From Desulfobulbaceae bacterium (GTDB taxonomy: Bacteria > Desulfobacterota > Desulfobulbia > Desulfobulbales > Desulfobulbaceae), in NCBI GenBank assembly GCA_019163135.1, contig JAFLKR010000077.1, forward strand, positions 1 through 36,987: a DNA stretch of 36,987 nt. The letters run 5' to 3'. The position numbers were made by a program, and so were the translations under genes. Within the stretch, counting starts at the first letter, position 1; the number at the start of each line of letters is the position of its first letter. Positions 180 through 9,833 of the stretch are shown in pieces. The notes beneath the pieces were generated by a model. The model ran no database searches, was not told the origin of the DNA, and worked only from the letters and a program-made list of their open reading frames with translations.

Positions 180-2012
180 TTAGAATTTCTCAAACTCCTC
201 ATCAAGATGATCCCCACCACCTTTTAAACCCATGTCGAGCTGAACTCCACCTTCGGATCTTCCTGCCTTGGCAGGCTTGGCCGCTCTAGAGGGTGCAGCC
301 TTGGAGGGAGCGACATGGCTGATTGCGTATTGTTTTCTTGGCACACCCTGCGGTACCCCTATCACCCGTCGTGATCTGCCGGTGTCCAGCGTGAAAAAGG
401 CAATGGCTGCCTTGAGCTGTTCGGCCTGACTGGAAAGCTCTTCGGTGGTGGAGGCCATTTCCTCGGCAGATCCGGCGTTTTGTTGAATAACCTGATCGAG
501 TTGTTGAATGGCCTTGTTGATCTGCTCAGCACCGGTATCCTGTTCTTTGCTCGAAGCACTGATTTCCTGAACCAGTTCGGCGGTCTTCTGGATATCGGGC
601 AGCATTTTGCCCAGCATATCGCCTGCCTGCTCGGCAATGGCGACGCTTGAGGTGGACAACTGGCTGATTTCACCGGCCGCCGACTGACTGCGTTCGGCCA
701 GTTTCCGGACCTCGGAGGCAACAACGGCAAAGCCTTTGCCATGTTCTCCGGCCCTGGCGGCCTCGATGGCGGCGTTTAAGGCCAGCAGATTGGTCTGACG
801 GGCGATTTCTTCAATGATCGAGATCTTGGTGGCGATCTGTTTCATCGCCGAGACGGTTTCATTCACCGCCTTGCCGCCATCTTTGGCATCGGAGGAGCTT
901 TTTACAGCGATCTTTTCGGTTTGCATGGCGTTATCGGTATTCTGGCGGATGTTGGAGGCCATTTGCTCCATGCTCGAGGAAATCTCTTCGGCACTGGCCG
1001 CCTGCTCGGTTGCACCCTGCGACATCTGCTGGGCGGTGGCGCTCATCTCCTGGGCGCCGGTGGCGACGTTGTCGGCGGAGGACTGGACCTCGGTGACCAC
1101 CTCTTTCAGCTTGTCGACCATGGTGGCCAGGGCCTCGATCAGTTCATCCTTATCGCTGCGTTTCTTCAGGTCGACCATGAGATTGCCTTGGCTTATCTGT
1201 TTGGCGCTGGCGGTTATATCTTCAAAGGCCCCGACCATCTTTTTCATCGCCGCCATGACGCTGGTGGTATCCGTAGCGGCAATGGCGATGTGCCCGGTAA
1301 GGTCGCCGACCGCCACCAGATTGGCGATTTCGCCTACCTGTTTGGGGTCGCCGCCCAACTGACGCATGACGATTCGGGCAATGATGAGGCCAAGACCGAT
1401 GGCGATAATCATGCCGAATGCCGCCAAAATAGTCATGATGAGGGTGGCCCGGGCGGCCAAAGTGGTATTGCCATCGGCAACGGTTTTACCTGAGGCGATT
1501 TTCGATTCAACCATCTTGACAATGGCGGTTTGTTCCTCGCGGGAGGCCTTGCCGGCATCGCCCTGGAGCAGGGCGGTGGCCTCAACGGTTTTTCCTTCCT
1601 TGGCGAGAGCGATCACCTTGTCAAGCAGAGGTCCGTACACCGTTCGCGTCCTTTTGAACTCCTCATAGATCTTTTTGCCGTTTTCGGAGAAAAGGGTTTT
1701 TTCGTAGCTATCGGCGTTTTTATTTATACTCTCACGCAGGTCCTTGATACGCCCGACGAATTGCTCCCGCTTCTCAGGGGTATCAGCAGACACTATATCT
1801 CGGGCATTAACGCGTAAGCGCTGGAACTCGGTGGAGATAGCGCTAACTTCTCCAAAAGGAACAACAATTCTTTCATACAGCATGGTGTCAGCTGTAGCAA
1901 TCTGCTTAATGTTGTAAATCCCGAAGCCACCGATAACTCCGGCAATAATCGCCACGGTAATGAACCCGGCTAGCAGCTTGCCTTTTAGTGTCATGTTGGT
2001 GAACCAGTTCAT
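180..2012 (-). CDS. Methyl-accepting chemotaxis protein (membrane chemoreceptor)
   Basis: A 610-residue receptor that should pass a periplasmic stimulus to CheA through CheW. The layout is classical: a first transmembrane segment at about residues 10-33, a periplasmic helical region of about 155 residues resembling the 4HB_MCP sensor fold, a second transmembrane segment at about 190-215, a HAMP domain, then the cytoplasmic coiled coil with the conserved tip [20 protein letters not shown]. The C-terminus ends in DEEFEKF, so there is no classical NWETF-type pentapeptide for CheR/CheB tethering. The longer frame reaches 2075, but the ATG at 2012 ([14 protein letters not shown]) has a GGGGGAG Shine-Dalgarno and fits the family start. 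It lies between cheA and cheW on the same strand. The ligand cannot be predicted. Confidence 0.93.
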
Positions 2013-2270: not shown

Positions 2271-4385
2271 TCAGAGCTGGTTAAGCTCCCTGGCCTCGGC
2301 CATTCTAGCCAGATCAGCAGGGGAAAGAATCAGGGCAACCGAACCATCTCCCAGGATGGTGGCGCCGGAGATGCCCTTGATATCCTGAAAAAGAATCCCC
2401 AGCGGCTTGATGACGGTCTGGTGCTCGCCGACCACGAAATCAACCACAAAGCCAATTCTGTTGCCCCGCACCGAAACAATCACGATCTGCTCGATTTCCG
2501 GTCGGTTGCCGACAATGGAGAATTGATCCCGCAGGCAGATGAAAGGAGTCAAATTGCCCCGCACCTTGGCCAGGTTACGGCCATGGGAGGCTTGCACATC
2601 GGCCCGCGACAATTCGACACATTCTTCCACCGCCCCCAGCGGCAGCACAAAATGGCTGTCGCCGATCTTCACCAGCAGGCTTTCGATGATGGCCAGGGTC
2701 AGCGGAATTTTAAGGGTGATGGTTGTTCCCTTGCCCAACTCGCTATCCACCACGATAGTGCCCCGCAACCCCTCGATACCGCGCTTGACCACATCCATGC
2801 CGACCCCGCGGCCGGAAACGCTGGTGATCTTGGCGGCCATGGAAAAACCGGGGGCAAAGATGTAGCCATAAATTTCCTGGTCCGACAATTCGACGCCGGG
2901 TGGAATCATGCCCAGCTCAATGGCCTTGGTCCGGATGGCGTCGCGATTGATGCCGCCGCCATCGTCATGGATGGTAATCAGCACCGAATCGCCGGCGTGC
3001 TCGGCTCCTAAACGAATGGTGCCGATGGCGGGTTTGCCGGCCGCGGTGCGGACCGCCGGTTTTTCGATACCATGATCGATGCTGTTGCGGATAATGTGGA
3101 CCAGGGGATCGTTGAGTTTTTCGATAACGGTCTTGTCCAATTCGGTATCGGCACCGAAGGTCACCATTTCGATCTCTTTGCCCAGCTCCTGGGAAAGATC
3201 ACGCACCAACCGTTTGAATTTGCTGAAGGTGCTGCCGATGGGCAGCATGCGGATGTTGAGGGCGGTATCGCGCAACTCGTTGGTCAGTCGCTCCACTTCC
3301 TCGGCTATGGAGATAAAGTTGGCGTCGCCCAGGGTATTGGAAACCTGGGTCAGGCGGGCCTGCACGGTCACCATCTCGCCGACCAGATTGACCAGTTGAT
3401 CCAGTTTATCCGCAGGTACCCGGATGCTGGCAGCAGGTTCAGGAGCGGCGTGCTCCTGCCTGGTTTTTTTGACATGCTGTTGCTCGGCCAGCGCCGATTC
3501 CACCTTCTCCGAAGTAACCGCGCCCTGATCCACCAGCATTTCCCCCAGCGGCCTTTGCTGCTGCAACACCTTGTTGAGGGCCTCAGGGGTGATATCGCCA
3601 CGCTCGATCAGGATTTCACCAAGCTTTTTGGGGGTGTCAGTGCCGTCAGTCTGACTGGGGTCATCGATCAGTTCAACCTTGATCTGGCAGTCATCCTCGA
3701 CGAAGATAAAAACATCGTTGATGGCAGCCTCACCGCGACTGGAGGTCAGGATGATGTCCCAATGGAGATAGCAGTGTTCGCCGACCAAGCTCTCAAGCGG
3801 GGGAACAGCGTCAAAATGGGCGGTAACCTGACAGTTTCCCAGGCCCCGCAACTCATTGATGAGCGATATCGGATTGCTGCCGCAAAGCAGCAGTTCCCGG
3901 TTCGGTTGAAAGCGAATCCGCCAGGTCTTCTGCTGAGCCTCTTCTGCTTGTGTCGCGCCAGGCGGCGCCATTACGGTCGAATCGGATTCCTCGACTGCTG
4001 TTGCCGGTTGCGGGACCAACTGTCGCAGGCCGGTGATAAGGGCGTCGCCCGCCTGCTTATCCACCTCGCCAGAGCCTGCCGAAGCCTCGAGCAATGCGGA
4101 AATATGGTCGCGTGATTTGAGGGTCAGGTCGAGCAGTTTTTTGGTCACCACCATTTTACCGTTGCGGACCAGATCAAAAACGGTTTCGACCTCGTGGGTG
4201 AAGGCGGCGATATCATCGAATCCGAACATCGCTCCGGAGCCCTTGATGGTATGCATCGCCCGAAATACCCGGTTGATCAAATCGTTGTCATCGGGTGTTT
4301 CTTCTAGATCGAGCAGGGAGGTTTCCAGTTCGGCCAGTAATTCTCCGGCTTCTTCGCGATAGGTGGCAATGTGTTGTTCAATCAT
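2271..4385 (-). CDS. cheA: Chemotaxis histidine kinase CheA with inserted MshEN-like motifs
   Basis: A 704-residue CheA that autophosphorylates on its Hpt histidine and passes the phosphate to CheY-type receivers. Visible domains: N-terminal Hpt with H45 in HTIKGSG; a central region (about 150-245) that may replace the P2 domain; two tandem motifs (254-277 and 279-303) of the form LGExLxxxGxxTxxxxxxxLxxQ, as in MshEN/T2SS-E N-terminal domains; the dimerisation helices (about 322-400); the HATPase domain with its N box around NSIDHGIE and glycine-rich lids; and a C-terminal CheW-like domain. The inserted MshEN-like motifs are unusual for CheA and raise the possibility of c-di-GMP or partner input. 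The gene is 64 bases after cheY and before the receptor, all co-directional. Confidence 0.95.
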   Translation of the reverse strand: MIEQHIATYREEAGELLAELETSLLDLEETPDDNDLINRVFRAMHTIKGSGAMFGFDDIAAFTHEVETVFDLVRNGKMVVTKKLLDLTLKSRDHISALLEASAGSGEVDKQAGDALITGLRQLVPQPATAVEESDSTVMAPPGATQAEEAQQKTWRIRFQPNRELLLCGSNPISLINELRGLGNCQVTAHFDAVPPLESLVGEHCYLHWDIILTSSRGEAAINDVFIFVEDDCQIKVELIDDPSQTDGTDTPKKLGEILIERGDITPEALNKVLQQQRPLGEMLVDQGAVTSEKVESALAEQQHVKKTRQEHAAPEPAASIRVPADKLDQLVNLVGEMVTVQARLTQVSNTLGDANFISIAEEVERLTNELRDTALNIRMLPIGSTFSKFKRLVRDLSQELGKEIEMVTFGADTELDKTVIEKLNDPLVHIIRNSIDHGIEKPAVRTAAGKPAIGTIRLGAEHAGDSVLITIHDDGGGINRDAIRTKAIELGMIPPGVELSDQEIYGYIFAPGFSMAAKITSVSGRGVGMDVVKRGIEGLRGTIVVDSELGKGTTITLKIPLTLAIIESLLVKIGDSHFVLPLGAVEECVELSRADVQASHGRNLAKVRGNLTPFICLRDQFSIVGNRPEIEQIVIVSVRGNRIGFVVDFVVGEHQTVIKPLGILFQDIKGISGATILGDGSVALILSPADLARMAEARELNQL

Positions 4386-4449: not shown

Positions 4450-4815
4450 TTATCCCAACACTTTTTTAACCACCGCGATCAATTGTTCCGGCTTGAAGGG
4501 TTTGACGATCCAGCCGGTAGCGCCCGCGGACTTGCCTTCCGCCTTTTTTGAATCCTGAGATTCGGTGGTCAGCATGACAATTGGAATGAATTTATTGAGA
4601 GCGCTGGCACGAACCCCTTTAATCAACCCGATCCCGTCGAGTTTGGGCATATTGAGGTCGGTCAGCAGCATATCCACTTTTTTGGTCGCGAGTTTTGTCA
4701 GGGCGTCCTGGCCGTCAACCGCTTCCACGACCTCGTAGCCGTTTTGCTTGAGCGTGAAGGCCACCATCTGCCGCACACTGGCCGAATCATCGGCTGTCAT
4801 GATCAGTTTTGCCAT
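4450..4815 (-). CDS. cheY: CheY-like single-domain response regulator
   Basis: A 121-residue stand-alone receiver. The acidic pocket D9/D10, the phospho-acceptor D53 (in LLTDLNMP), the switch threonine T83/T84 and the conserved lysine K105 (VKPF) are all present, so it should be phosphorylated by the adjacent CheA. There is no output domain, so it acts by binding a partner, such as the flagellar switch in classical chemotaxis or another target in an alternative chemosensory pathway. Its start overlaps the end of the STAS gene upstream by 13 bases, which implies translational coupling, and cheA follows 64 bases downstream. No flagellar or pilus gene is visible here, so the target is unknown. 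Confidence 0.93.
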   Translation of the reverse strand: MAKLIMTADDSASVRQMVAFTLKQNGYEVVEAVDGQDALTKLATKKVDMLLTDLNMPKLDGIGLIKGVRASALNKFIPIVMLTTESQDSKKAEGKSAGATGWIVKPFKPEQLIAVVKKVLG

Positions 4816-5168
4816 TTTTTTTCACCTCCGAATTGACGAAAACAGGCATTGTTCTTGTTTGTGCAGTGCTCAAAGCGTTCCGCCCCGGCTGCCGTCGAAA
4901 GATCGAGCAGGGCCTGAGGCACCGGCCCACGATGGATAAAGCGTTTGCCCTCGGCGGTGGCCGTTTTGCAGGCGGAACAAAAGACCTGCAGTGCGGTGAT
5001 ATCCATCTCCACCTCGGGATTAAACTCAACGACCACTGTTGAGGCCTCTGTCAAACCCGTGCGAATGCGGCCAATGAAATCAGCAATGGTATCGATGGTC
5101 AGACGGTCACCGGAGCTGATCACGCACTCGTTACCCTGCTCCGAACTGTTTGCGGTTATAGATTCCAT
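4803..5168 (-). CDS. STAS-domain protein of the chemosensory operon
   Basis: A 121-residue protein starting at the ATG at 5168, which has a GGGGGAG Shine-Dalgarno; a longer in-frame extension to 5273 would run back into the hemerythrin gene and is unlikely. The sequence shows the alternating strand/helix pattern of a STAS domain, with VVVEFNPEVEMDITALQVFCSACKTA in the position of the regulatory loop (normally DxSGL). Here a threonine stands where anti-sigma antagonists carry the phosphorylatable serine. STAS proteins of this size often sit beside CheY/CheA in deltaproteobacterial chemosensory clusters. It overlaps cheY by 13 bases. The family call is from pattern and context, and the partner is unknown. 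Confidence 0.75.
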   Translation of the reverse strand: MESITANSSEQGNECVISSGDRLTIDTIADFIGRIRTGLTEASTVVVEFNPEVEMDITALQVFCSACKTATAEGKRFIHRGPVPQALLDLSTAAGAERFEHCTNKNNACFRQFGGEKKWQN

Positions 5169-5226
5169 GGAACGTCTCCCCCGAGCCATCAAGCGTTGAT
5201 GTCGGTCATGGTGGATTTCAATTGCA

Positions 5227-5637
5227 TTAAATACGGAAGTTGCCAGCGTTGATGAAACGGCCAAATTCGGCATCTGACTGGAGGATATGCGCAGAGAGCC
5301 AATCGTTGAGAAAGGTTAAAAGTTCGAGCGATATTTGTCGTCTGCCTTCATGGTAATCCTTATGCATCTCCACCACTCTCCTGATAAAAAGGGCATGCTC
5401 TTCTTTATGCTTTTCAAAATGAGGAAAAAAACTTTCCTGCATCCAGTATTCCTCAGCAGAAAAATGATAGGTGGCATAATCAACCAGTTCATCGAAAAGA
5501 GAGGTTATATTATCGCCACGAATCTTATTGATAAAATCATTATAAAGCTTGTTCAGCAGAGAAAACAAATGTTGGTGATGTTCGTCAACCTGCTGAAGCC
5601 CAATCGAATAACGGTCATTCCACTCAAAAATAGACAT
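5227..5637 (-). CDS. Bacteriohemerythrin
   Basis: A 136-residue protein that should bind O2 at a non-haem di-iron centre in a four-helix bundle. The family ligand pattern is visible in order: a histidine in QVDEHHQHL, the H...E pair in YHFSAEEYWM, two histidines in FPHFEKHKEEH and the final H...D in SAHILQSDAEFGRF. The start chosen is the ATG giving MSIFEWNDRYSIG (5637), which has GAGGG just upstream and matches the usual start of the family; another in-frame ATG lies at 5652. It sits 34 bases after the MCP-like gene and 58 before the STAS gene, so an oxygen-binding protein is embedded in the chemosensory operon. It could buffer or deliver O2 for sensing, or protect; the sequence does not decide. 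Confidence 0.93.
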   Translation of the reverse strand: MSIFEWNDRYSIGLQQVDEHHQHLFSLLNKLYNDFINKIRGDNITSLFDELVDYATYHFSAEEYWMQESFFPHFEKHKEEHALFIRRVVEMHKDYHEGRRQISLELLTFLNDWLSAHILQSDAEFGRFINAGNFRI

Positions 5638-5671
5638 ATTACCCTCAAGCATTCCTATGGCTCATCCGCCG

Positions 5672-7672
5672 TTAAAAGAGATCAACGTTATCACCGAACT
5701 CAGAATCAGAATCTTTTGAACTGGCTACCTCTACGGGTGCGCTTGCAGTTATCACCCCATGCTTTCTGGCGATGTCTTCATGGATACGCCGTTCGCTTTC
5801 CATGGTATACCGCTCCGCCATCCGGCGCAGATCCTCCTTGAAGGCGGCGCTGGCCGGGTACAACTCCCTGGACTGGTTGCAAATTTGCCGGAGATTACTC
5901 AGAACTTCATCAGCCATCGCTTTGCACCGTTCATGCACATCGATGCCGCGGTTGATTTTCTCTATCTCCACGGAAAGGGCGTTAACCCGGCTATGAATCT
6001 GGGAGAGCATGGAAAACAGTTCCGTTCCCATGTTTTCAAGGATGGCCAGGATATCGTTCAGCGCCGCTTTCATTTCGATGAGTTTCGCAGTGAGATTCTC
6101 CTCACCGCTTTTTGCTTCATCGAAAAGAAGACCGGTGGTGGCGTCAATATCCGTCAAGGTCGAGGTGATAGATTCCGTACGCTGCACATCCCCGTGGGAA
6201 AGGTGACCGATTTCTTCAGCCAGCACACACATGGAGGCCCCTTCCGGGCCGGTGCTTGCCGCTTTAATTCTGGCATTCAGCGCTATCTGATTAATGTCCT
6301 GACCGATGTTTTCAATATCGGCAACAAAACCTGTTATTTCATTTACCGTATCGGTGACCTCTTTCATGATAACGGCCAAGTCAGCATTGGTCCCTGCACA
6401 GGTGGTCAGCAACTCGGTGATCGATGTCATGTGATGGCTGACATCATCAATAAAAGATCCGTCTGAGGTATTGCTCATGCCGGTATGGGCATAAATATCC
6501 TGGGCCATCAACTTCTGCTGCCCGCTGATATCAGACAGATTACTTACTATCGAGGAAACGGCTGCATAGAGTTCTACCGAGGCAAACTGCAATTGCGCTT
6601 CCTGAAGTTCGCAAACATCTCCAGCCTTACTGATCACTTCCTCAGCATTGCGACCTTCGGGCGCTTCGGTATCGAACTGGCCCCCTGAGATTGACGGCAG
6701 CAAGCCTTCCAGGGCCTCAATAACATGCTCGACTTGTTGTCGGAAAATATCGTGAAACTGCATCGACTGAACAATCTGGCTGATATGGTTTGCATTTTCA
6801 CTTGAAGCAGAGGATATGGCGTTCCCTAACATGGAAAATCGTTGATTGACCGAGTCGAGTCCGGAAATACTGGTGGCCGTATTGGCAATGGTTGACAACA
6901 CCATGCCCTTTTGGTTTTCGAGTGCAGTGTTAGCCTCTTTAATGTTTTTGGAAATTATTGAGGATAAGAGCACTCTATGATTACTTATAATATTTGATTT
7001 CTCTTTAATCTGCTGAGTCAGCTTGTTGATATCGAGAGCAAGATTAATAAACTCATGCCCGCTTTCCCCTATATGTGCGCTCTCTATCTTGATCAATACT
7101 TCAAGAATATAAAGATTCTTGCTCATCTTCTTAAAGCCTTCCAAGGGTGCGGCAATCTTCTCCAGAAGACTTCCCACCGAATCAAAGGTCGTACAAAAGT
7201 TAGCGTTCTGCGATTGTGTTTGATCGAGGTACGCCTCCATCTCGCGGAGAATCTGACGCAGTTGTTCGGTCAAATTTTGCACACGCTCACCGGAAGCCGC
7301 CTCTACAAAATTCTGGGCGTCCTGGGAAAGAGTGGCTGAACGATGATAGACGCCCTGCATCTCGTTGCCGATATGCAAAAATTCGCGCTCGGTGGCACCT
7401 GCCAACCGGCGGAGCGTCTTCAGAGAGGACGAGATAGTCGATGACCAGGCATCAAAAGGAAAGGAAGGGGGAGGGATGGTTCTGCTGCTGCCATTTGAAG
7501 GCATACGCTCATTCTGCTGGTTGTCCACTGGCGGGAAACACTCGTCTTGCATCCGCCCGACTGCGGCGTGGGCTGGCGCGACCGGGCTTTGCAAGTGCAA
7601 GTTCCCGATATTGCCCATGATAGAACGGATCAGTTCCATAAGACTCCTTGTACCCATGAACGTCGGGTTCAT
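5672..7672 (-). CDS. Cytoplasmic MCP-like protein with degenerate signalling tip
   Basis: A 666-residue, mostly helical protein with no transmembrane segment or HAMP domain. Long heptad-rich helices fill residues 60-600. At about 455-480 it has IALNARIKAASTGPEGASM, recognisable as the receptor tip (canonical [14 protein letters not shown]) but with several core residues changed, so normal CheA/CheW contact is doubtful. A tail with poly-charged DSDSEFGDNVDLF ends the protein. Two starts compete: the ATG at 7672 overlaps the stop of the preceding regulator gene (ATGA) with a weak AGGA, while the ATG at 7639 has a better AAGGAG. Hemerythrin follows 34 bases downstream. It may be a soluble chemoreceptor, a scaffold, or a phosphatase-like regulator of the pathway; the role is not established. 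Confidence 0.8.
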   Translation of the reverse strand: MNPTFMGTRSLMELIRSIMGNIGNLHLQSPVAPAHAAVGRMQDECFPPVDNQQNERMPSNGSSRTIPPPSFPFDAWSSTISSSLKTLRRLAGATEREFLHIGNEMQGVYHRSATLSQDAQNFVEAASGERVQNLTEQLRQILREMEAYLDQTQSQNANFCTTFDSVGSLLEKIAAPLEGFKKMSKNLYILEVLIKIESAHIGESGHEFINLALDINKLTQQIKEKSNIISNHRVLLSSIISKNIKEANTALENQKGMVLSTIANTATSISGLDSVNQRFSMLGNAISSASSENANHISQIVQSMQFHDIFRQQVEHVIEALEGLLPSISGGQFDTEAPEGRNAEEVISKAGDVCELQEAQLQFASVELYAAVSSIVSNLSDISGQQKLMAQDIYAHTGMSNTSDGSFIDDVSHHMTSITELLTTCAGTNADLAVIMKEVTDTVNEITGFVADIENIGQDINQIALNARIKAASTGPEGASMCVLAEEIGHLSHGDVQRTESITSTLTDIDATTGLLFDEAKSGEENLTAKLIEMKAALNDILAILENMGTELFSMLSQIHSRVNALSVEIEKINRGIDVHERCKAMADEVLSNLRQICNQSRELYPASAAFKEDLRRMAERYTMESERRIHEDIARKHGVITASAPVEVASSKDSDSEFGDNVDLF

Positions 7673-8055
7673 CGATCCTGCGCGTTTTGGAGAAGAAGCT
7701 GTTCGATTCTTTTGATTTCAGCGATCAGTTGATCACGACTGAACGGTTTTTCGACAAAGCCGGCACAGCCGTTTTTGAGCGCTTCGATGACCAGAGTCGT
7801 GTCGGCATAAGCGGTCATGATCAAAACGGGCAAAGTTGCATGCACCTGCCGAATTTCCATCAACAGATCAATGCCATTGGTTATGGGCATCAGGTAATCG
7901 GTGATAATCAGATCGAACCCGTGATCCTCCTGGGAAAGAAGCTCCAGGGCCTGCCGGGCGTTATAGACGCCGACGACCGAGTACCCTTTGCTTATCAGGC
8001 CAATCTTTATCGATTCGACCATCATGGCTTCATCGTCAACAACAAGTATTTTCAT
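7669..8055 (-). CDS. Single-domain response regulator
   Basis: A 128-residue CheY-like receiver beginning at MKILVVDDEAMMVESIK. Acidic pocket D7/D8, phospho-acceptor D53 (LIITDYLMP), switch threonine T81 (IMTAYAD) and K103 (VEKPF) are all intact, and there is no output domain. The start at 8055 has an AGGGG Shine-Dalgarno; the frame extends to 8304 but that part is non-coding leader containing the promoter. It is the first gene of the chemosensory operon, about 170 bases downstream of the predicted sigma-54 start site, and its stop overlaps the next ATG. It could take phosphate from the CheA of this operon or from the adjacent kinase at 9839-13195. Confidence 0.92.
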   Translation of the reverse strand: MKILVVDDEAMMVESIKIGLISKGYSVVGVYNARQALELLSQEDHGFDLIITDYLMPITNGIDLLMEIRQVHATLPVLIMTAYADTTLVIEALKNGCAGFVEKPFSRDQLIAEIKRIEQLLLQNAQDR

Positions 8056-8161: not shown

Positions 8162-8179
8162 ACGGAATGCCATTTTGGA
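8162..8179. repeat. Third copy of the activator-site-like repeat, in the operon leader
   Basis: The 18 bases ACGGAATGCCATTTTGGA match 8419-8436 at 17 of 18 positions. Unlike the other copies this one lies downstream of the predicted transcription start (about 8226), in the leader of the response-regulator gene. It could be a binding site used for feedback, or an evolutionary duplicate. Confidence 0.5.
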
Positions 8180-8237
8180 AACTGGCCCTCTTCCCGAGTC
8201 GTTCTCCGGCAATCATGATACCGCTCATCTTTCACAT

Positions 8238-8253
8238 AGCAAAGGTCGTGCCA
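8238..8253 (-). promoter_or_regulatory. Sigma-54 (-24/-12) promoter
   Basis: Read on the minus strand the bases are TGGCACGACCTTTGCT, which fits the RpoN consensus TGGCACG-N4-TTGCW at every defined position, with the GG and GC dinucleotides at the required spacing. Transcription would start near 8226 and run into the response-regulator gene at 8055 and on through the chemosensory operon. A sigma-54 activator gene lies immediately upstream (8460-9833), and two copies of a repeat sit 115-185 bases upstream, where enhancer sites are usual. Confidence 0.85.
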
Positions 8254-8368
8254 CCTGAACCAAGAATGGGTGATAAGCAGATCAACTATTTGATAAATAA
8301 GCAATTATACAAGTATATAAAGAGAGGGCGGCTGGTGGAACGAGGTGGAACAAAGGATGAAGACTGTT

Positions 8369-8382
8369 CCATTTTGGACTAG
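8369..8382. promoter_or_regulatory. Candidate activator-binding site, copy 1
   Basis: CCATTTTGGACTAG is repeated exactly at 8427-8440. It contains a short dyad (TCCA-TTT-TGGA) of the kind bound by Fis-type helix-turn-helix dimers. It lies about 120 bases upstream of the -24 element, a typical enhancer distance for NtrC-family activators. Binding by the neighbouring activator is inferred. Confidence 0.55.
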
Positions 8383-8421
8383 CAGTTACCGAAACTCCGG
8401 CGGATGCAACGATCCGGGACG

Positions 8422-8459
8422 GTATGCCATTTTGGACTAGTGGTTCCTTTATGGCATAC
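8422..8459. promoter_or_regulatory. Candidate activator-binding site, copy 2, inside a 9-bp inverted repeat
   Basis: The second CCATTTTGGACTAG (8427-8440) lies within a larger dyad, GTATGCCAT (8422-8430) and ATGGCATAC (8451-8459), perfect over 9 bp with a 20-base centre. The dyad begins directly after the stop codon of the activator gene. It has no T-tract, so an operator is more likely than an intrinsic terminator, although a transcript hairpin at the mRNA 3' end is possible. It is about 180 bases upstream of the sigma-54 promoter. Confidence 0.55.
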
Positions 8460-9833
8460 TCAGACTATCCCATAAGACTGCAGCTTGCGCCGAAGGGTAT
8501 TCAAGCCGATTTCCAGCAAGCGCGCAGTTTGTAATTTGTTTTCGCCGGTATAGCGATAAGCCTTGAGAATATGGTCTTTTTCAACATCGGCCAGTGGAGC
8601 AACGGACTCGGGGGGCAACGATGGCGCTACCCGATGTTTCTTTGATATCGCGGTGGTTACGTAGGCGGGCAAATGATGGATAGAAATCGACTTTCCTTTG
8701 GCCAGGCTTGCCGCATATTGCACAATCGATTTCAGCTCTCTGACATTTCCCGGATAGTCATACGCACTCAGCACAGCCCAAGCCGGCTCTTCTATGTCTC
8801 CGCTGCCATGGCTGGCGTCGCCATCCCGTAAAAAGGCTTCCACCAGAAGGACGAGATCCTCCCCTCTTTCTCGTAAAGGGGGCAGATCCAGCCAGGCGCC
8901 GCACAGACGGTAGAAAAGATCTTTACGGAACAGCCCCTGATCCTGCAATTTATCCAACTCGGCATTGGTCGCGGCAATGAAGCGAACATCCGCCCCCAGG
9001 GGTCTGCTGACTCCCAGTTTAAAATATTCACCTTCCTGGAGCACCCGAAGCAGTTTCCCCTGCAACTCGAGCGGCAGACTGCCGATTTCATCCAGAAACA
9101 GGGTCCCTCCGGAGGTTGTTTCGAGATAGCCTTTTCGATCCTGGGTGGCCCCGGTAAACGCCCCTTTGGTATGACCGTAAAACTCAGCTTCAAACAAGGT
9201 CGCGTTCATGGAGGACATGTTGACGGGGGTAAAGGTGCGCCCCGCTCTGGAACTGGCCCGATGAATCGCCTGAGCCAAGAGTTCTTTACCGGTTCCGGTT
9301 TCTCCCGTTATCAAGACCGGAACCTTCCTGGCGGCATGGAGCTCAGCCTCCTTCATAATCTGGAGCATCTTTTCCGACTGGGTGATGATGGGCGCAAAGG
9401 CCTCTGGGTACAGCAGGTCCGGTATCTTTTTCTGTTTCCCTATCCGTTGAATTTCCAGGAAATTTTTTCTTTCCAGAGCCTTGGCAATGACGATCAGCAG
9501 CTCTTCCAGGTTGAGCGGCTTGACCCGGTAATCAAAAGCCCCTTTTTTTATGCAGCTTACCGCCAGGCTGGCCTCATCGGCGGCGGTTACCATGATGCAT
9601 TCGGTAGCTGGGCTACAGCTTCGGATACGATCCAGCAACTCGACGCCGGTCATCCCCGGCATGGTGATATCAATGATGGCAATATCCGCCGACTCGCCCT
9701 GCTGAAACAATGCCGCAGCTTTCCGGGGGTCGCTTTCGGCCCGAATGTTCCGGAACCCGCTCAGGAGCAACCCCCTCTCGAGGCTTTCCAGAAAATCCTG
9801 CTCATCATCTATTAAAAAAATACGGGATTGCAT
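8460..9833 (-). CDS. Sigma-54-dependent response regulator (NtrC family)
   Basis: A 457-residue enhancer-binding protein in three parts. The receiver (1-120) has D9/D10, phospho-acceptor D55 (IAIIDITMPG) and the conserved lysine in YRVKPL. The AAA+ domain (about 150-390) has Walker A GETGTGKE, the sigma-54-contacting loop GAFTGA, Walker B TLFLDEIG and the LPPLRERGEDL region. A C-terminal Fis-type helix-turn-helix (about 418-455) has KLQTARLLEIGLNTLRRKL. It lies 5 bases after the histidine kinase gene, so the two are surely co-expressed and form a pair. A consensus sigma-54 promoter and two repeat sites lie immediately downstream, making the chemosensory operon the likely target. Confidence 0.95.
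   Translation of the reverse strand: MQSRIFLIDDEQDFLESLERGLLLSGFRNIRAESDPRKAAALFQQGESADIAIIDITMPGMTGVELLDRIRSCSPATECIMVTAADEASLAVSCIKKGAFDYRVKPLNLEELLIVIAKALERKNFLEIQRIGKQKKIPDLLYPEAFAPIITQSEKMLQIMKEAELHAARKVPVLITGETGTGKELLAQAIHRASSRAGRTFTPVNMSSMNATLFEAEFYGHTKGAFTGATQDRKGYLETTSGGTLFLDEIGSLPLELQGKLLRVLQEGEYFKLGVSRPLGADVRFIAATNAELDKLQDQGLFRKDLFYRLCGAWLDLPPLRERGEDLVLLVEAFLRDGDASHGSGDIEEPAWAVLSAYDYPGNVRELKSIVQYAASLAKGKSISIHHLPAYVTTAISKKHRVAPSLPPESVAPLADVEKDHILKAYRYTGENKLQTARLLEIGLNTLRRKLQSYGIV

Follow-up and report, generated by a model that had tools for sequence, protein, structure and literature searches.

Chemosensory arrays are usually taken to be always present in the cell or to be linked to flagellar synthesis. 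A locus in a 3.64-Mb draft genome, the relatives of which are labelled Desulfobulbaceae and Desulfocapsaceae, raises the question whether one sensory system can decide about the production of another. The window, i.e. the whole stretch of 36,987 nucleotides analysed here (contig C23 of the draft), carries a two-component gene pair next to a run of chemosensory (che) genes, and an earlier note had proposed that the pair switches on this run through a sigma-54 promoter in the gap between them.

Gene content of the locus

On the minus strand the genes follow each other in the order kinase, enhancer-binding protein (EBP), a gap of about 400 bases, RR1, MCP-like gene, hemerythrin, STAS-like gene, CheY, CheA, MCP and the start of cheW (Table 1). 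The kinase gene ends 5 bases from the EBP gene, and its dCache match reaches 42.5 bits, slightly below the Pfam cut-off of 45. The EBP combines a receiver, an AAA+ domain with an intact GAFTGA loop and a Fis-type HTH (Pfam, sequence), and the genome encodes RpoN on another contig (a 486-aa open frame, Sigma54_DBD with E 2e-61). Pfam agrees with the previously described succession of receiver, MCP-like, hemerythrin, STAS, CheY, CheA and MCP genes, with the STAS match below its cut-off. The description of the operon as "complete" holds in part: CheA, CheY, MCP and CheW are encoded together, CheW by its first 28 codons only because the contig ends within the gene, so that the operon is only partly visible. 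In the relative G011, CheW, CheR, CheD and CheB come next.

The last 4 bases of RR1 are also the first of the MCP-like gene; cheA and the likely start of the MCP gene are 258 bases apart. The MCP-like protein can be aligned to its relatives only from residue ~57-73, and its true start may therefore be internal; the first ~57-70 residues, which have no counterpart in the relatives, could reflect a misplaced start or formerly intergenic DNA that is now translated.

Table 1. Features of the window discussed in the text, in the direction of transcription
Feature	Position	Strand	Evidence and remarks
Histidine kinase, 1118 aa	9839..13195	-	Pfam: N-terminal membrane region, Cache-like sensor, PAS domains, HisKA/HATPase
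NtrC-family response regulator / sigma-54 enhancer-binding protein (EBP)	8460..9833	-	Pfam: Response_reg, Sigma54_activat, HTH_8
Weaker operator-like site	8442..8458	-	10/14; adjoins operator 1
Operator 1 (predicted)	8423..8439	-	12/14 to TATGCCA-N3-TGGCATA; -185 from the 17-mer promoter match
Operator 2 (predicted)	8365..8381	-	10/14; -127 from the promoter match; 58 bases from operator 1
Sigma-54 promoter (predicted), 17-mer GTGGCACGACCTTTGCT	8238..8254	-	exact core; position conserved in EBP orthologs
Operator-like site in the leader	8166..8182	-	10/14; downstream of the promoter
RR1, stand-alone receiver, first gene of the operon	7669..8055	-	Pfam
Soluble MCP-like protein	5672..7672	-	Pfam; weak MCPsignal
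Hemerythrin-like protein	5227..5652	-	Pfam
STAS-like protein	4803..5273	-	Pfam; 25.8 bits, below the cut-off of 29.2
CheY	4450..4815	-	Pfam; 88-99% identity among order relatives
CheA	2271..4385	-	Pfam: Hpt, dimerisation, HATPase and CheW domains
MCP with four-helix-bundle sensor	180..2012	-	Pfam; start is the chosen likely position
cheW, first 28 codons	1..84	-	sequence; contig end

Promoter and operators

The postulated sigma-54 promoter between the NtrC-type activator gene and the receiver-led che operon is borne out by an exact -24/-12 core, TGGCACGACCTTTGC (8253-8239, minus strand), which is the sole exact core match in the window and has the form TGGCACG-N4-TTGC, with the -24 GG and the -12 GC at the correct spacing. 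Because exact matches to the bare core are not unusual in this genome (9 vs 7 for the reversed control), the significance of the promoter rests on its position and conservation. Of 2000 Markov simulations of the gap, 3 attained a sigma-54 score of 15, and the window scores 18.6; the matrix follows the published consensus, and these scores are approximate and to be read relative to each other.

Upstream of the promoter, the 14-bp repeat CCATTTTGGACTAG is present in two exact copies (8369-8382 and 8427-8440) with no further copy at up to one mismatch in the genome, and an exact repeat of this length arises in 1 of 2000 Markov simulations of the gap. Once the gap is aligned with those of relatives, each copy turns out to fill most of a 17-bp inverted repeat, TATGCCA-N3-TGGCATA, and the one at 8427-8440 lies largely within operator 1. 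The two repeats noted earlier are exact, but the predicted functional unit is the 17-bp inverted repeat and not the 14-bp direct repeat. A half-site of the weaker operator-like site next to the EBP gene forms a 9-bp inverted repeat with operator 1 (8422-8430/8451-8459). The earlier note had overlooked a third copy of the core, CCATTTTGG at 8170, on the downstream side of the promoter; the leader site to which it belongs could be a feedback element or a relic.

Conservation among EBP relatives

The intergenic region used directly as a DNA query found no relatives, and the comparison was made through the EBP protein; for G000, the genome under study, a search at class level returned the same set as one at order level. 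Orthologs of the EBP are 94% (G020), 76% (G191), 68% (G015) and 67% (G502) identical, and the last three form a single clade with the EBP of the window (support 100/100). The nearest comparison is missing because the contig of G020 stops right at the promoter gap. In all three of the others, which are the closest usable EBP relatives, operator sites, a sigma-54 promoter (ATGGCATCATCTTTGCA in G191, CTGGCACGCACTTTGCT in G015, ATGGCACCTTTATTGCT in G502) and a homolog of RR1 come after the EBP gene, with MCP genes beyond; this conservation supports the original proposal. The genes after RR1 vary among the three, and RR1 homologs behind the EBP in other genomes are 38-53% identical. The C-terminal part of the kinase is 64-66% identical to the EBP-adjacent kinases of G015 and G191, while its sensor half is ~60% identical to another kinase of the same genome (contig C150, 3665-5335). 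The C-terminal half is conserved with the EBP and the sensor half resembles other kinases, so that the sensor has been swapped.

The operator motif was derived from the window and the first relatives and then applied to 60 other EBP loci from another class, with EBPs 51-61% identical. At least 12 of the 14 positions were matched in 35/60 held-out loci, compared to a mean of 1.25 and a maximum of 8 in 150 scrambled-arm controls, and at least 13 in 12/60 (controls 0.05). Two peaks stand out among the distances from the sites to the sigma-54 match, one at about -185 (19 in the bin) and one at about -126 (17 in the bin; scrambled controls at most 5), and the sites of the window lie at -185 and -127. 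The held-out loci are related by descent and do not represent 60 independent trials, yet the scrambled-arm controls have the same relatedness and fail.

Targets of the EBP family

Most of the held-out EBP genes are divergent from a gene for MTHFR (PF02219, confirmed by Pfam in L145) or from an HdrA-like gene (recognised by sequence only), with operators and promoter in between. A 55-aa fragment of one divergent gene found no match; the full gene encodes MTHFR. The MTHFR side comprises L127, L130-L132, L137, L138, L145, L146, L148, L156-L159, L165, L166 and others, the HdrA-like side L154, L160, L162, L169, L170, L175, L177, L178 and L180. The paired operators and sigma-54 promoters at these genes suggest that in Desulfobacterota the EBP family controls genes of C1 metabolism or electron transfer. 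Because so many of its members face such genes, the EBP family as a whole is not specific for chemosensory targets.

At least four other lineages nevertheless have an operator and a sigma-54 promoter upstream of che genes: these elements precede RR1-GAF-HD, CheR, MCP, CheW, CheD, CheY, CheB and CheA in G713, MCP, CheW, a receiver, CheA and CheB in G643, and an RR1-kinase and CheA in G593, and in G422 two operators and a sigma-54 promoter precede RR1 and CheA, with MCP and CheR after them. A hierarchy of one sensory system above another, which had been called uncommon, is therefore recurrent. The EBP tree requires several changes, so that targets of the RR1/MCP type must have been gained or lost repeatedly. 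In L083, L084, L085 and L184 a KaiC-like gene (Pfam for L084, sequence for the others) follows the EBP and an RR1 gene with operator comes after it; in the last three a kinase and receivers stand between the KaiC-like gene and the operator-controlled RR1 gene. Within the genome of the window, a sample of 13 stretches with AT-rich spacers and the other exact sigma-54 core sites contained no paired operators at the standard distances.

Orthologous che operons

Upstream of the MCP-like/hemerythrin/STAS/CheY/CheA operons of relatives, neither this EBP nor its operator is present. Most of these operons have a sigma-54 match immediately ahead of the MCP-like gene, with scores of 12-16 in L001-L005, L052 and L053 and of 10.4 in L050 (matches of at least 12 occur in the background once per 17 kb); L051 has no match at this place. 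Two further types of inverted-repeat enhancers accompany these matches: GGAGGTAA-N2-TTACCTCC in L001-L005 (13 sites; scrambled controls 0.19, maximum 2) and ACTGTCTAC-N4-GTAGACAGT in L050, L052 and L053 (8 sites; controls 0.56, maximum 3), for both of which the controls overstate the evidence because the sequences counted are those that had yielded the motifs, by eye and repeat search. In L001 and L005 the former type and a sigma-54 match appear again further on. Neither type is present upstream of the che operon of the window. We also considered that the ancestral promoter of the che operon might have survived before the MCP-like gene of the window, and rejected this possibility, as there is no match of at least 12 there. 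The simplest reading suggested by these sequences is that the orthologous che operons retained sigma-54 control and exchanged the activator, as the exchange of enhancers implies.

Proposed mechanism and alternatives

The chain from the neighbouring kinase and EBP through the paired operators and the sigma-54 promoter to an RR1/che transcript is, in our judgement, the best explanation and a highly probable one. The DNA itself shows the promoter and operators, the order of the genes, rpoN, the intact motifs of the EBP, and the conservation of operator and geometry with the EBP family, and the link that the earlier note drew from EBP over repeats and promoter to the receiver-led che operon gains support from the conservation of operator sequence, geometry and gene order, including the held-out set. 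The membrane kinase would phosphorylate the adjacent EBP, as family knowledge, adjacency and the conserved kinase C-terminus suggest; the EBP would bind operators 1 and 2, and DNA looping together with ATP hydrolysis at the GAFTGA loop would lead to the opening of sigma-54 RNA polymerase at the promoter. We infer phosphotransfer, looping and activation because they are standard for the EBP family. The transcript would start with a leader of ~170 bases, encode RR1 first and continue into the che genes, and the whole chemosensory pathway would be produced only while the first sensor is active. Given the 4-base overlap of RR1 with the MCP-like gene, transcription probably runs on from one into the other; that one transcript extends to cheW and further is conjectural, and another promoter could lie in the gap ahead of the MCP gene. 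Counting against this explanation are the 258 bases between cheA and the MCP start and the match of operator 2, which is 10/14 only.

The former of these two points also favours the possibility that the EBP drives RR1, with or without the first few genes, and that the core che genes, at least MCP and cheW, are transcribed mainly from an internal constitutive or sigma-28 promoter. Several relatives, in which the target of the EBP is RR1 plus MCP or a kinase only and no che operon, fit with such an arrangement, as do sigma-70-like matches, which occur in the region at chance rate. However, the overlap of RR1 with the MCP-like gene and the tight packing from there to cheA argue for continuous transcription, terminator matches in the region are not above chance, and the window has no sigma-54 match of at least 12 directly before the MCP-like gene, where most orthologous operons possess one. 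We therefore consider this possibility unlikely.

Less probable still is that another EBP acts at the promoter and that the operators of the neighbour serve a different purpose such as autoregulation or insulation. The orthologous che operons do use different enhancer motifs, and presumably different EBPs, and many relatives of the EBP carry the operator upstream of their own gene; but neither of the alternative motifs precedes the operon of the window, the geometry of its operators to the RR1 promoter is the standard of the family, and no operator site of at least 11/14 lies upstream of its kinase gene. That promoter and repeats are non-functional chance matches might be argued from the bare core, which is genome-wide no commoner than its reversed control. 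Against this stand the simulations of the gap, the conservation and above all the held-out counts and distance peaks, which make chance extremely improbable.

Significance and comparison with known systems

Whether a given chemosensory array is built at all seems to depend on a dedicated two-component pair, which would act via an operator open to searches and experiments. We think it somewhat probable that kinases with a swappable sensor, a single EBP family and TATGCCA-N3-TGGCATA at about -185 and -126 make up a portable, phylum-wide cassette, which has repeatedly been placed before complete chemosensory operons and genes of C1 metabolism, and that, in the other direction, a single orthologous che operon stayed under sigma-54 while at least three types of enhancer, and hence activators, replaced one another in front of it. 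The orthologous che operons then represent a natural experiment, in which a promoter keeps its sigma-54 class and changes its activator. The EBP family is widespread in Desulfobacterota, and the operator also predicts targets for it, MTHFR and HdrA-like genes among them.

A che system is coupled with an NtrC-type regulator in Myxococcus xanthus (Che3/CrdA), in the opposite direction: there the che system controls the EBP. We found no description of the EBP-operator-che arrangement in a partial coverage of the literature, in which motif logos are not searchable, and a search for the operator string gave no match, which is weak evidence since motifs are usually printed as logos.

A two-component tier above motility genes is known from FlrB/FlrC (PMC12607845). 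FlrB/FlrC of Vibrio cholerae and FleS/FleR of Pseudomonas are a tier within the flagellar gene hierarchy, whereas the pair of the window adjoins a single chemosensory operon, its kinase is a large membrane-sensor protein, and the stretch studied contains no flagellar gene.

In Desulfovibrio vulgaris, EBP genes are as a rule co-located with their sigma-54 target, bind inverted-repeat sites and have small regulons, and the promoter consensus is tGGcacg/tTGCt (Kazakov et al. 2015, PMC4641369). The window shares this logic of an EBP beside its sigma-54 target and of inverted-repeat sites. In the portions of that account drawn on here, however, no EBP is listed with a che target, and a chemotaxis-linked promoter is given without a predicted enhancer site; its motifs are presented as figures, and one of them may equal TATGCCA-N3-TGGCATA.

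A similar promoter placement in related bacteria comes from Geobacter, for which sigma-54 promoters were predicted directly upstream of the major che clusters (Tran et al. 2008, PMC2577667). The parts of that paper considered here name no activator or operator, and its authors state that the predictions gave little specific insight; in the window, in contrast, a candidate activator, its operator and a fixed geometry can be identified.
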